Notes under the pieces: model-generated
Databases searched by the model: none
Seen by the model: only the letters and a program-made list of their open reading frames with translations
Told to the model about the DNA's origin: nothing
Made by a program: the position numbers and the translations under genes
Part shown: positions 14,924 through 19,510 of the stretch, piece after piece
Layout: every line of letters begins with the position of its first letter
How positions within the stretch are numbered: the first letter of the stretch is position 1
Assembly (NCBI RefSeq): GCF_005771675.1
Contig: NZ_VAJM01000001.1
Span: 186,001-250,000 of the forward strand
Direction of reading: 5' to 3'
From: Hymenobacter jeollabukensis
GTDB taxonomy: Bacteria > Bacteroidota > Bacteroidia > Cytophagales > Hymenobacteraceae
DNA: 64,000 nt

Positions 14924-16177
14924 CTACTGCGACGACAGCAGCTCGGCCGCGGCCTGGGCCGGGTGCGGGCCGCGGTCCTTCGTGAGGATGGTGTGGCCCA
15001 GCTTGTCGCGCTTGGTGGCCAGGTACCGCTCGTTGTGCTCGTTGGGCGTCACCTCGATGGGCACCGTGTCCACGATTTCGAGGCCGTAGCCGATCAGGCC
15101 GGTGCGCTTGCGGGGGTTGTTGGTGAGCAGGCGCATCTTGGTCAGGCCCAGGTCGCGCAGGATCTGGGCGCCCACGCCGTAGTCGCGCTCGTCCATGCCG
15201 AAGCCCAGCTCCAGGTTGGCTTCCACCGTGTCGCGGCCCTGCTCCTGCAGCTTGTAGGCGCGCAGCTTATTCAGCAGGCCGATGCCGCGGCCTTCCTGGT
15301 TCATGTACACCAGCACGCCCTTGCCCTCGCGCTCGATCTGCTGCATGGCGTGGTGCAGCTGGGGGCCGCAGTCGCAGCGGCAGGAGCCGAAGATGTCGCC
15401 CGTCACGCAGCTGCTGTGCACGCGCACCAGCACCGGCTCGTCGCCGCTGATGCCGCCTTTCACCAGGGCCAAGTGCTGGGCGCCGGTGCTGCGCTGGGTG
15501 TAGGCAATCAGCTCAAAGTCGCCCCACTGGGTGGGCAGCTGCACCGCAATTTCGCGGTCGATGAGGCTTTCCTGCTTGAGGCGGTACTTGATCAGGTCCT
15601 GCACCGAAATCAGCTTCAGATTCCACTTGTCGGCAATCTGGCGCAGCTCGGGCAGACGGGCCATTTCGCCGTCTTCCTTCAGAATCTCGACCAGCACCCC
15701 GGCGGGCTCGAACCCGGCCAGGCGGGCCAGGTCGATGGCGGCTTCGGTGTGGCCGGCGCGGCGCAACACGCCTTCCTTGCGGGCCTTGAGCGGGAAGATG
15801 TGGCCGGGCTTGCCCAACTCCTCGGGCTTGGTGTCGGGGTCGATGAGGGCCAGGATTGTCTTCGAGCGGTCGGAGGCCGAAATGCCGGTGGTCACGCCGT
15901 TCTTCAGCAGGTCGATGGACACGGTGAAGGGCGTGGCGTGCAGGGCGGTGTTGCGGCCCACCATCAGCTCCAGGCCCAGCGCCTCGCAGCGGTCCTCGAT
16001 GAGCGGGGCGCACACCAGGCCGCGGCCGTGGGTGGCCATGAAGTTGATGACTTCGGGGGTGGCGCAGCGGGCGGCGCAGATAAAGTCGCCCTCGTTTTCG
16101 CGGTCTTCGTCGTCCACTACTACCACCACTTTGCCGGCGCGGATGTCGGCAATGGCGTCTTCGATGGGGTCAAGCAT
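14924..16177 (-). CDS. ribBA: Bifunctional 3,4-dihydroxy-2-butanone 4-phosphate synthase / GTP cyclohydrolase II
   Basis: A 417-residue fusion that makes both precursors of riboflavin. The N-terminal RibB half has [11 protein letters not shown] and the [13 protein letters not shown] motif. The C-terminal RibA half has the zinc ligands in [18 protein letters not shown] and the catalytic [19 protein letters not shown] segment. Both halves look complete. The ATG at 16177 ([16 protein letters not shown]) is the family start; the longer open frame upstream is a shadow. TAACTTTG lies 80 nt upstream as a possible promoter. No FMN riboswitch was recognised in the leader. Confidence 0.97.
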
Positions 16178-16257
16178 GGCTTGCTTCAGAAAGGGCGGCC
16201 GGCCAGGGGTAGCGGGCCGCGGGTTGGGTGTTGGGCTGACAACCGCCAGCGGCCCTA

Positions 16258-16265
16258 CAAAGTTA
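16258..16265 (-). promoter_or_regulatory. Possible -7 box for ribBA
   Basis: TAACTTTG on the minus strand fits TAnnTTTG and lies 80 nt upstream of the ribBA ATG, just past the stop of the XRE gene. No good -33 element was seen. Confidence 0.4.
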
Positions 16266-16307
16266 ACGGCCCGTTCGGAATCGTTGGCGGTAGTTGCCGA
16301 ACAGTTG

Positions 16308-16937
16308 TTAGGCAGGCGCTGGAGCGGCCCCCAACAGCTCATCCAACGCCGTCCGCTCGGCTTCCAGACCGCGCAGGCGGGCCGTGCGCAGGGCCCGTTC
16401 GGTGGCGGTGAGCGGCTCCGGTGCGTCGGCAGCATCTTTGGCTAATAGCCGCAGCCACAACATATCCTCCTCGGGATGGGGCGCGGCAATCTGCCACATC
16501 TTCAGCAGCGCCGGCGCGGTGGGCGCGGTGGTGGTGGCCAGGCCCGTGCGCAGTACCTGCAACGCCCAGTGGCGGCGGGCATAGGTTTGCTGCCGCCGCC
16601 CCCGCCCCATCAGTTCCAATTTGATTTTGGCAATAGCGGCCTGCACATACAAGCGCCGGTAGCTCAGCTCGTCCCGGTCGGGCAGATCAGGGGCCGCAGT
16701 GGGCTCGGCGGTAAACTCGGGCGCGGCCGGCCCCTCGCCGCCCGGGGCGGGCATCCAGCGCAGCAACACGAACAGGCGCTGCAGGGCGGAATACGGCAGG
16801 GTGCGGCGGCCGGCTTCCACATTGGCCAGCAGCGCCCGGCTAATGCCCAGAAAATCGGCCAGCTCGGTCTGGCTAAGCGCAAAATGCGTCCGCACCTGGG
16901 CGCACAGCTCATGTGAATACGACTGCCGATACCGCAT
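16308..16937 (-). CDS. XRE-family helix-turn-helix transcriptional regulator
   Basis: A 209-residue DNA-binding protein. Residues ~12-60 form an HTH_3 domain: [28 protein letters not shown], with helix 2 and recognition helix 3 clearly seen. The C-terminal two thirds are helical and rich in Arg, Ala and Leu, and may mediate dimerisation; I do not recognise a ligand domain. The upstream region holds an array of palindromes on an exact 42-bp period, the nearest ending 15 bp before the ATG. Autoregulation through this array is the simplest inference. The gene is downstream of, and on the same strand as, the glycosyltransferase pair. Confidence 0.9.
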
Positions 16938-16952
16938 ATACAGGGACGAATG

Positions 16953-17101
16953 CTCGGTTCAAGCGGTGGAACGCTTTTGCTAAAATAATAAAGGAGTGTT
17001 CCAATACCTGGAACACTCCCCGATCTTTTTCTCAGCAGTGTTCCAACCATTGGAACACTTTCTATTATTTCTCCCTGAAGTGTTCCAGTTGCTGAACCAG
17101 C
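16953..17101. promoter_or_regulatory. Four operator-like palindromes on a 42-bp period
   Basis: Two perfect palindromes AGTGTTCCA-N5-TGGAACACT lie at 16995-17017 and 17037-17059. A third copy at 17079-17101 has a perfect left half and a degraded right half. A fourth at 16953-16975 has a degraded left half and an 8/9 right half (TGGAACGCT). Start-to-start distances are exactly 42 bp, four helical turns, while the 5-nt centres and the sequences between sites differ. The array fills the space between the glycosyltransferase stop and the XRE gene start, so it probably binds a regulator, perhaps the XRE protein itself. Confidence 0.8.
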
Positions 17102-17105
17102 CGGC

Positions 17106-18281
17106 CTACTCCGCCAGCAGCCGCGCCAGCCGCTCGGTGGTGCCATCCCAGGTGTACCGCTCGCGCACGAACTCCCTACCCTGCGCAGCCAAACCGGCAG
17201 CTTCCTCGGGGTGCTCCAGCAGCTGGCAGATGCTCTCGGCCAGCCCGTCGGTATCGGCCCCGACGAGCAGGTGCTGGCCGGGCGTGCCGCCGAGGGCGTT
17301 GTTGGCCAGCGGGGTGGTCACCGAGGGGCGGGCCATGGCCATGGCTTCGAGCAGCTTGTTTTGCAGGCCGGTGCCGGTGCGCATGGGCGCCACGAACACC
17401 CGCGCCGAGGCGTAAGCGGTGCGGATATCGGGCAGCCAGCCGCTGACTTTGACGGCTTCCGACTGCAGGGCCAGCACCCGGGCCGCGGGCGTGGTGCCGG
17501 CCAGCAGCAGCCGGGCGGCGGGGTGGCGGCGCCGCACGGCGGGCAGAATGCCCTCGGCCAGCCACTCGGCCGCTTCCACGTTGGGGTGGTAGGCCATGTT
17601 GCCGCAGAACACCAGCTCAAACGGCTCGTCGGCGGCTACGGCACCGGGGCGGAAAAATTCGGTGTCGATGCCGTTGGGCACCACCTGAATGCGCTGCCGC
17701 TGCTCGTGGTCGATGAGCTGCCGGTCCTGGTCGGAAATGATGGTGTGGTGACGGAACCAGTCGAAGGCGCGGGCCTCGTACTGCTGCAGGCGGCGGGCTT
17801 CGAGGGCCATGACGGGGCGCTGCCACAGCGGGGCCTTGCCGGCCCAGCGCTGCATGCCGGTCGAAAACACGTCCATGTAATCGAGCGTGAACGGGACGGC
17901 CGTGGCGTGGCGCCGGGCGTACTCGGCCATACGAATCAGCTGGCAGTAGCCGCGTTCGGGCCGGAACTCCCGCACCACGTCGGCCAGCCGGCGCTGGGCC
18001 GCCGCGTCGTGGAAGTAGCCGACCTGGAAGGGCTGGCCCTGCACGGCGGCCAGGGCCATGTTGGCAGCAATGCCGGGCTTCTGCAGCCGGTGCACGTGCA
18101 CGCCGCCCCGGCAGAGCGGGGCCACGGCCGCGTGCGACGCGGGCGTCACGTCCTCGTCCGAGAGGGCGAAGAGGCAGACCTCGAAGTGACGGGCCAGGTA
18201 GCGCAGCTGGTGAAAGGCGCGGAGTTTGTCGCCCTTGTCGAGCGGATACGGAAAGCGGGACAGCAGGACGAGAAGCTTCAT
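17106..18281 (-). CDS. Glycosyltransferase (GT4-like; PEP-CTERM/EpsH-associated type)
   Basis: A 391-residue GT-B glycosyltransferase. The N-terminus MKLLVLLSRFPYPLDKGDKLR and the FTLDYMDVFS segment resemble the sugar transferases described next to exosortase systems. The C-terminal donor-binding domain has FVAPMRTGTGLQNKLLEAMAMA, where a Glu binds the nucleotide sugar. Its ATG at 18281 overlaps the stop of the upstream glycosyltransferase gene (ATGA overlap of 4 nt), so translation is probably coupled. Both probably add sugars to a surface polysaccharide or lipid. A much longer frame upstream was rejected. Confidence 0.88.
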   Translation of the reverse strand: MKLLVLLSRFPYPLDKGDKLRAFHQLRYLARHFEVCLFALSDEDVTPASHAAVAPLCRGGVHVHRLQKPGIAANMALAAVQGQPFQVGYFHDAAAQRRLADVVREFRPERGYCQLIRMAEYARRHATAVPFTLDYMDVFSTGMQRWAGKAPLWQRPVMALEARRLQQYEARAFDWFRHHTIISDQDRQLIDHEQRQRIQVVPNGIDTEFFRPGAVAADEPFELVFCGNMAYHPNVEAAEWLAEGILPAVRRRHPAARLLLAGTTPAARVLALQSEAVKVSGWLPDIRTAYASARVFVAPMRTGTGLQNKLLEAMAMARPSVTTPLANNALGGTPGQHLLVGADTDGLAESICQLLEHPEEAAGLAAQGREFVRERYTWDGTTERLARLLAE

Positions 18282-19510
18282 CGGGGCGGCAAAGCTACGG
18301 CCTGGCCCGCACCCACGCGCCGGTACAGCTCGACAAAACGCTGCACCACCTTGTCGTTGTCGTAGAGCAGCTGGGCGGTGCGCTGGGCCTGCTCGCCCAC
18401 GCCCTTGTAGCAAAACTCGCCGTGGCAGTACTGGCGCAGCACCTCAATCCACTGCTGCGGGTCGTCGCACACCAGGATGTCGTGCAGGTGCCGCACGGCA
18501 ATGCCCTCGGAGCCCAGGCCGGTGCTGATGATGCACTTGCCCAGGGCCATGCCCTCGATGATTTTGACCCGCATGCCGCCGCCCGATAGCAGGGGCACTA
18601 TCATCACCTCGTACTCCTGCATGAACACCGGCGCCGAGGCCACGAAGCCGTGCACGTGCACGCCGGGCACGCGCAGGTCGCGGATGTGGGCCGGCATGTT
18701 CTTGCCGGCCACCTGCAGCTCCAGCTCGGGGTGGTTTTTGCGGGCTTCGGGCCACACTTTTTCCAGAAACCACTCCAGGCCCTCCACGTTGGGGCGCCAG
18801 TCGAGGGAGCCGAGGAAAAACAGCGTCTTGGGCTGGGCTTTGATGGCCGGGTCGGGCTGCACCCGCGTCAGGTCGACGCCGGCGGGGATGAACACCACCG
18901 GCTCGGGGCAGCCCAGCTGGCGCAGGCGGCGCTGGTCGGGCTCGGTGATGGCGGCCACGGCCGAGAAGCGCGGCAGGTAGCGGGCCTCGAAGCGCTTGAG
19001 GCGGCGGGCCAGGTGGCGCAGGTAGCCGGCTTTCAGCCCCTGCCGCTCGTTGCGGGCCAGCTGGTCCCAGATTTCGTGCTCCACGTTGTGGGCCCGAAGC
19101 ACGGTGGGCACGCCGGGCGCCACGCGCTGCACCACGTCCACGTACCAGGCCACGAAGGTGCCTTCCATCTGCACCACGTCGAAGTGCTCGGTGGTGAGCA
19201 GCTCGGTCAGCTTGGCGGCCAGCGCCCCGGACATGAAGCGTTCCACGTTGTAGGGGTGCGGGCTGAAGAGCAGGTTGCGCAGGGCCTTGAGCGGCGAGAG
19301 GCTGGTGTCCACGTCCACGGTCACCAGGCGCAGGCCGGGGCCGAGGTGGGCCAACGCATCAGCCGCCTGCTGGTGCTTGGGCGTGTTGGCGGCCAGCAGC
19401 GTGACGGTATGCCCGGCGCGCACCAGGCCGGCGGCCACGTCGTACATGGCAATGGCGCCGCCATCGGTGGGCGGAAACGGGACGCGGGGACAGAGCTGTA
19501 GAACGTTCAC
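18278..19510 (-). CDS. Glycosyltransferase (GT4-like)
   Basis: A 410-residue GT-B glycosyltransferase and first gene of a two-gene operon. The acceptor domain begins MNVLQLCPRVPFPPTDGGAIAM; the donor domain contains PAGVDLTRVQPDP, LGSLDWRPNVEGLEWFLEKV and MIVPLLSGGGMRVKIIEGMA with the conserved Glu. It is distinct from the next gene but similar in plan, and the two probably act in sequence on one surface glycan. A -7 box TATCTTTG lies 29 bp upstream. No other capsule or LPS genes are in the window. Confidence 0.9.
   Translation of the reverse strand: MNVLQLCPRVPFPPTDGGAIAMYDVAAGLVRAGHTVTLLAANTPKHQQAADALAHLGPGLRLVTVDVDTSLSPLKALRNLLFSPHPYNVERFMSGALAAKLTELLTTEHFDVVQMEGTFVAWYVDVVQRVAPGVPTVLRAHNVEHEIWDQLARNERQGLKAGYLRHLARRLKRFEARYLPRFSAVAAITEPDQRRLRQLGCPEPVVFIPAGVDLTRVQPDPAIKAQPKTLFFLGSLDWRPNVEGLEWFLEKVWPEARKNHPELELQVAGKNMPAHIRDLRVPGVHVHGFVASAPVFMQEYEVMIVPLLSGGGMRVKIIEGMALGKCIISTGLGSEGIAVRHLHDILVCDDPQQWIEVLRQYCHGEFCYKGVGEQAQRTAQLLYDNDKVVQRFVELYRRVGAGQAVALPPR

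Follow-up and report, generated by a model that had tools for sequence, protein, structure and literature searches.

The stretch of Hymenobacter jeollabukensis DNA analysed here (64,000 nucleotides, positions 186,001 to 250,000 of contig NZ_VAJM01000001.1, referred to as the window) carries a series of short palindromes just ahead of a gene for an XRE-family regulator, and the question raised by this locus is which protein, if any, reads these palindromes and what their constant distance means. In the first-pass annotation, four palindromes on an exact 42-bp period were described, the inner two of them being perfect, and this description was confirmed: 16995-17017 and 17037-17059 match AGTGTTCCA-N5-TGGAACACT perfectly, the outer partial copies lie exactly 42 bp from these, no other match was found in the window when up to three mismatches were allowed, and the dinucleotide-preserving shuffled window (n=100) yielded 0 matches. 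The copy at 16953-16975 keeps 8/9 positions of the right half and 4/9 of the left half, and the copy at 17079-17101 keeps 9/9 of the left and 5/9 of the right half. The same array can alternatively be described as three complete 37-bp units of the form TGGAACACT-N19-AGTGTTCCA (right half-site, spacer, left half-site; R-N19-L) which repeat every 42 bp, whereby the six half-sites make up three units and each half-site has its partner (Table 1). As R-N19-L is the unit kept in relatives, the N5 palindrome, though present, is not the conserved element, and the outer sites first regarded as partial are the end halves of units. Likewise, the sequence between the sites, first described as not kept, turned out to be not fully free, since the central base of the spacer is A or T in 9/9 units of the three arrays identified in this genome and since, in the predicted fold of the window array, the first and the third spacer partly pair with each other. 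The array was correctly placed between the stop of a glycosyltransferase gene (17106, minus strand) and the start of the XRE gene (16937, minus strand), with gaps of 18 bp to the former and 29 bp to the XRE start codon.

Table 1. Positions of the regulator gene, its neighbours and the putative operator units within the window.
Feature	Position	Strand	Basis or remark
XRE-family regulator, 209 aa, with N-terminal HTH_3 and helical C-terminal part	16308..16937	-	HTH_3 match; structure model
Helix-turn-helix domain, residues 14-55; recognition region includes ...ANVEAGRR	16773..16898	-	domain match; in relatives, covaries with bases of the half-sites
Predicted long-helix C-terminal part, residues 88-202	16332..16676	-	structure model
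Putative operator unit 1, TGGAACGCT-N19-AGTGTTCCA	16967..17003	.	nearest XRE start; first half-site 8/9; 42 bp from unit 2
Putative operator unit 2, TGGAACACT-N19-AGTGTTCCA	17009..17045	.	both half-sites perfect
Putative operator unit 3, TGGAACACT-N19-AGTGTTCCA	17051..17087	.	both half-sites perfect
Glycosyltransferase, upstream; conserved gene bordering a variable gene slot	17106..18413	-	
ribBA (DHBP synthase / GTP cyclohydrolase II), downstream; borders the slot on the other side	14924..16177	-	

The protein encoded next to the array matches HTH_3 with 26.6 bits against a cut-off of 23, and its structural model, the confidence of which is low to middling (mean pLDDT 67.4), comprises the helix-turn-helix domain, a low-confidence linker and long helices (residues 88-137, 142-147, 155-171 and 178-202); judged from this model, the long C-terminal helices are likely the oligomerisation part. 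With respect to a toxin-antitoxin role as for HipB or HigA, the antitoxin model TIGR03070 scored 21.9 bits and hence below its cut-off of 71.65, and no known toxin was found in the adjacent genes, i.e., glycosyltransferase and ribBA (the start of the latter was set by us at an 11-residue stretch kept in relatives). With respect to a restriction-modification controller, neither a restriction nor a methylase gene was found among the adjacent genes, and control-protein models matched the protein weakly (best E 0.011).

For the identification of relatives, a profile (A1) covering the helix-turn-helix and the helical C-terminal part was built from 14 rows, one of which is the window gene itself, so that its match (E 6.5e-63) is one by construction. 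Among the genomes of the taxonomic family, the XRE family thus defined was found in 63/204 and in 2/6 genera, the copy number per genome reaching 16, which is also the number of candidates scored. When named genomes were scanned with patterns from two close members, four loci were obtained, namely two Hymenobacter proteins and two archaeal contigs, the archaeal matches spanning only 41 residues of the helix-turn-helix. No paper on this XRE family was found in searches of the open-access literature, and the family is large and apparently undescribed. A number of the listed relatives contain an in-frame stop in the matched stretch, which suggests rapid turnover. Among the matches listed there are at least about 150 places of the family, 99 of which were used (14 first found, 25 best per genome and 60 listed, mostly in rank order); the loci L079 and L080, which are cut by contig ends, were left out, leaving 97 members. 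An array was scored when two R-N-L units of one word reached a score of at least 20 of 24. By this threshold, 72/97 members possess a two-unit array within the 230 bases before the matched start, as compared to 4/97 further upstream and 0/97 after shuffling. These two controls replaced an earlier one taken within the XRE coding region, which itself scored highly (61/97 at a score of at least 6, against 72 for the real and 1 for the shuffled sequences). The remaining 25/97 relatives lack a two-unit array at this threshold, some of them showing one unit.

Repeat distances among the 72 arrays were found to fall at 40-44 bp in 40 arrays and at 52-55 bp in 28, with none at 45-51 bp; two more lie at 57-58 bp (L130 57, L088 58) and two at 31-32 bp (L048 31, L097 32). 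The class means of 42.5 and 53.6 bp, the latter including the two arrays at 57-58 bp, are read from the sequences as four or five helical turns, and the five-turn arrays possess a longer gap where the four-turn arrays have the N5 loop. All later counts refer to the 68 arrays in these two period classes, with L048, L097, L130 and L088 left out and 8/68 arrays reported in L-R order. With three R-N-L units at 42 bp, the window array shows the trait of the family.

Evidence as to which protein reads the arrays was derived from their words. Anchoring by geometry kept 60/68 arrays, the window's array being among the eight dropped, and these 60 arrays carry 49 distinct 8-base words, 55 of them starting with TGT or GGT; the window's own word starts with TGG. 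The half-site distance is 28-30 bp in 26/26 raw 8-mers starting with TGT or GGT, and the corresponding counts for anchored arrays are not independent evidence because the anchoring rule required a distance of 27-31 bp. The strongest association between a helix-turn-helix column and the half-site was that of the residue at +4 after the conserved E with the first base: with K at this position (after ExGR) the first base is G in 11/11 arrays, as compared to 5/49 with any other residue (Fisher 1.3e-8, a value which ignores kinship; counted as independent pairs, the ratio is about 3 to 0). Moreover, K at -3 from the conserved E goes along with CC at bases 5-6 in 6/6 arrays vs 0/54, a pairing found both in clades with 41-42-bp and in clades with 53-bp repeats. 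The independent pairs mostly point in the same direction, their number being too small for a kinship-corrected p <0.05. Hymenobacter lucidus, a species outside the 97 members, combines EAGRK with GGTAACAA and hence agrees with the covariation; its array, by our reading, has four complete units, with neighbouring N5 palindromes 43 bp apart. In the H. lucidus genome beyond this array two single one-mismatch sites were found, vs one for a control pattern, and no remote array was present at either of them. The assignment of the array to the XRE gene, which had been proposed from its position, is hence supported both by the 72/97 upstream arrays and by the covariation between word and recognition region.

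A further view on this relation comes from the interval between glycosyltransferase and ribBA (16177-17106; L054-L057), which is a variable slot occupied by different single reading frames in close relatives. The XRE gene and its array fill the slot in this genome (G000) and in G006, while a 145-aa frame is found in G002, a 228-aa frame in G005 and nothing in G001; the search for the glycosyltransferase was negative in G003, G004 and G007. Comparison with G006 revealed a glycosyltransferase identity of 93%, an XRE identity of 48-53%, depending on the alignment, and an array of unchanged architecture with the word TGTCACACT. With regard to the proposed check of the period in relatives, approximately 42 bp are kept in G006 despite a new word and a diverged XRE protein, so that a freely varying spacing, which would have spoken against the first-pass annotation, was not encountered; this is what a repressor changing together with its own operator would look like. 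The leader before ribBA (CCTAACAA...) is alike in G000, G002, G005 and G006.

Considering these sequence comparisons, the window array is with good probability the operator of the adjacent XRE protein, which probably binds it cooperatively for autorepression. The XRE protein is suggested to read the 9-bp half-sites through its helix-turn-helix, whereby one unit would consist of two half-sites whose starts are separated by 28-30 bp. With units at whole helical turns, the bound proteins would share one DNA face and could contact each other, these contacts being probably made via the helical C-terminal part. Within units, the A+T content peaks at the axis and approximately 10 bp either side and dips near 5 bp, a phased pattern that is positive in 50/68 members and negative in 14 (p 1.3e-6), as if the DNA bends round the XRE protein. 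Measured in relatives, the distance from the first ATG back to the axis of the second reported unit has a median of 30 bases, so that the start region would lie under an occupied array, and occupation of the array upstream of the start codon may shut off the XRE gene's own transcription. A sigma-70-type promoter was not found in the array region of the window; the Bacteroidetes -7 box, the promoter element searched for in relatives, occurred 10 times vs 4.1 in shuffled sequence and 7 on the other strand, a modest enrichment. Binding, cooperativity, repression, looping and the control of two remote loci, described below, are what we infer, cooperative autorepression on one DNA face being suggested by the A+T phasing, the position of the array and the helical model of the protein.

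The spacing itself had been explained by selection for one face of the DNA, and this explanation stands insofar as the distances cluster at four and five turns. However, when the four- or five-turn label was mapped onto a rapidly built tree of these 97 XRE proteins, only three changes were counted; the class is hence largely inherited, and few independent events underlie the helical-face argument. Furthermore, when the interiors of adjacent units were compared as reverse complements, their identity was 80% or more in 10/68 arrays and complete in five of these, as compared to 1/68 for the direct order and 0.3% for mixed pairs, and arrays therefore appear to change by copying entire units in inverted orientation. 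As such copying would keep an exact spacing without any selection, it represents the main weakness of the helical-face argument and may contribute to the pattern. In its strict form, this consideration leads to the idea of a purely mutational spacing, in which inverted copying and an inherited period would account for the distances without any helical-face meaning, and which would be compatible with an operator role. Next to the exact reverse-complement interiors and the few changes on the tree, it is favoured by a third array of this genome, in which the 19-base spacer of a unit lacking in G002 is reverse-complementary, base for base, to the spacer that follows it (L008:4880-5014). Yet the interiors of most arrays are not closely alike in either order and their distances nevertheless fall within the two classes, the range of 45-51 bp is empty, and the A+T content within units is helically phased, wherefore we consider a purely mutational origin of the spacing somewhat unlikely, though a serious contender.

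The operator reading was extended by a search for the window word in the entire genome (6,177,743 bases), as the first-pass annotation had advised. The word is rare: it was found at three loci of the 6.18 Mb, always as exact 42-bp repeats, and once as a lone two-mismatch site on C7; a motif common at unrelated spacing, the other outcome that would have spoken against the first-pass annotation, was thus not observed. At the second locus (array 2) it occurs at C1:655212 and 655254, between what we take to be a glycosyltransferase-like gene on one side and a PqqD-like followed by an ATP-grasp-like gene on the other, and at the third locus (array 3) at C22:213380, 213422 (one mismatch) and 213464, presumably between genes for a DUF2723-like membrane protein and a GreA-like protein. 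No XRE gene was seen beside either array. Within the taxonomic family, 12/204 genomes contain the word with at most one mismatch, and multiple matches were identified only in this genome and in G002. Array 2 is missing from the corresponding place in G002 and G006, where G000 has an array-only stretch of roughly 160 bp, and was therefore probably gained in G000. Array 3 is confined to G000 and G002 among eight genus members, being absent upstream of the corresponding gene in the other six, and in G002 it has one unit fewer and weaker sites. A scan of 874,501/6,177,743 bases, the window and the array loci included, returned as score-24 arrays only the three with the window word. Judged from the shared word, the window XRE protein probably also occupies arrays 2 and 3, which could as well be former sites or chance acquisitions. 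A further 42-bp match, at L178, was rejected as a repeat inside a reading frame: L178:14795-15000 (G000:C22 near 54.8 kb) consists of short interspersed GCATTGGAAGG-type repeats in a SNALEGASNASEG-like frame at the start of an efflux-type protein. In G002, another 42-bp array with a different word (TTTGTTGCA / TGCAACAAA-like) was observed at L037:1430-1540 (C11 near 526453), preceded by a membrane-protein-like frame; within the 3 kb of this locus an XRE gene was not seen. In G001, an XRE gene with a similar word upstream of it is present (L051).

All three arrays of this genome are intergenic, and this finding, together with their folding properties, would also fit hairpins that act in RNA, be it as bidirectional terminators or as mRNA-end structures, the repeat distance then being a by-product of duplication. 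In the predicted fold the whole window array forms one long imperfect hairpin (z = -8.1), the array region has three terminator-like sites in 351 bp vs 0.3 in shuffles, and array 3 includes a single long palindrome that is almost perfect (L008:4880-5014). A function in RNA does not account for words that vary in step with the recognition residues of the XRE protein next to them, for the recurrence of arrays directly upstream of XRE starts or for the replacement of the N5 loop by a longer gap in five-turn arrays, and terminators would not need a word common to three loci of one genome; this explanation is therefore regarded as improbable. Even less credible is a REP- or MITE-like palindromic repeat that is mobile or propagates itself, with its enzyme elsewhere and the XRE gene as passenger, as the array-only stretch at locus 2, the additional unit at locus 3 as compared to G002 and the inverted duplication of units would agree with it, but neither the restriction of the word to three loci, nor the lack of additional score-24 arrays in the bases scanned, nor the position of the array before the XRE start in most relatives does. 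REP-, CRISPR- and integron-like readings were judged by the anatomy of the array and set aside, given that neither the loops nor the spacers are alike and that the word is limited to three loci of the genome.

Returning to the XRE protein and its putative operator, the loci of relatives revealed a second component, i.e., a gene for a coiled-coil-like protein of approximately 139 aa downstream of XRE. By clustering it was found in at least 59/97 loci (e.g., L014, L048 and L049; alignment A4), a lower bound because only the fetched flanks (about 1,000-1,500 bases downstream) were searched, and in 38 of the 59 it begins 80-170 bases past XRE; for L142 the partner gene was added by profile. Across genomes the partner occurs in 55/204, 54 of which also have the XRE gene, while XRE alone is found in 9 and the partner alone in 1. 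In the window the partner gene was not found, ribBA being the next gene after XRE. Library searches left the partner protein unnamed, with nothing near cut-off (8 proteins scanned in Pfam and PHROGs, 4 in PADLOC and 19 in NCBIfam), and that of L066 had no match in phage or plasmid records. Profile comparison gave no sign of kinship between the XRE family and the partner (probability 1.4), and the stretch separating both genes showed no enrichment of the XRE word (2/37 vs 4.7 expected). Arrays of at least three units more often go along with a missing partner than the other arrays do (11/14 vs 18/54, Fisher 0.005; L136, with its partner match upstream, was entered as having a partner), an association that is clade-bound and is therefore only mentioned.

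A wider model may be put forward, which we hold as tentative only: in Hymenobacter-type bacteria, an undescribed multi-copy family of array and XRE gene, usually with the approximately 139-aa partner, would diversify its words so that paralogues ignore each other, like phage immunity groups, the operators being rewritten or refreshed by inverted duplication of units. The window member would then have lost its partner, lengthened its array and gained two remote targets, i.e., a selfish or immunity-type module would have turned into an ordinary regulator. If the operator reading is right, the family would represent a natural library of repressor-operator pairs, often many per genome, with residues tracking words, and it would allow tests, within a single family, of how specificity shifts jointly in a helix-turn-helix protein and in its operator while function is kept, and also of how strongly helical phasing limits the spacing of operators. 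Moreover, the occurrence of XRE gene and partner in 54/204 genomes points to an uncharacterised two-gene module.

Genes for XRE / HTH_3 autoregulators are generally preceded by their own palindromic operators, and in this respect the locus is of a familiar kind. The nearest helix-turn-helix folds obtained with Foldseek were those of restriction-modification C proteins, HipB and 434 Cro, small helix-turn-helix proteins of the same fold, a similar list being obtained by profile, with no Foldseek match of the window XRE protein reaching 0.001. Unlike these, the window protein possesses a helical C-terminal part of approximately 140 residues, its family has half-sites 28-30 bp apart and several units at four or five turns, and many paralogues per genome carry differing words. 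C.Esp1396I was solved as a tetramer on its natural operator (entry 3clc). For the Xre-RES toxin-antitoxin system of Pseudomonas putida, autorepression and a higher-order complex in which the XRE protein occupies an inverted repeat of its own promoter have been described (PMC12204516). Both systems are alike in the XRE protein and the inverted repeat before its own gene, and for the window XRE protein complex and autorepression would be the expected counterparts; they differ in that the P. putida partner is a RES toxin and the window neighbours are glycosyltransferase and ribBA, and in the architecture of the array. The spacing of lambda operators was reportedly engineered by Hochschild and Ptashne in 1986, whereas an entire XRE family would have such an arrangement by nature. 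For lambda repressor, cooperative binding to operators at whole helical turns is documented (PMC9283939). The likeness lies in a helix-turn-helix repressor and helically phased sites, with cooperativity being presumed for the XRE family. What is known is this kind of system; the interest lies in an architecture shared across the family, in how much the words differ and in the partner gene.
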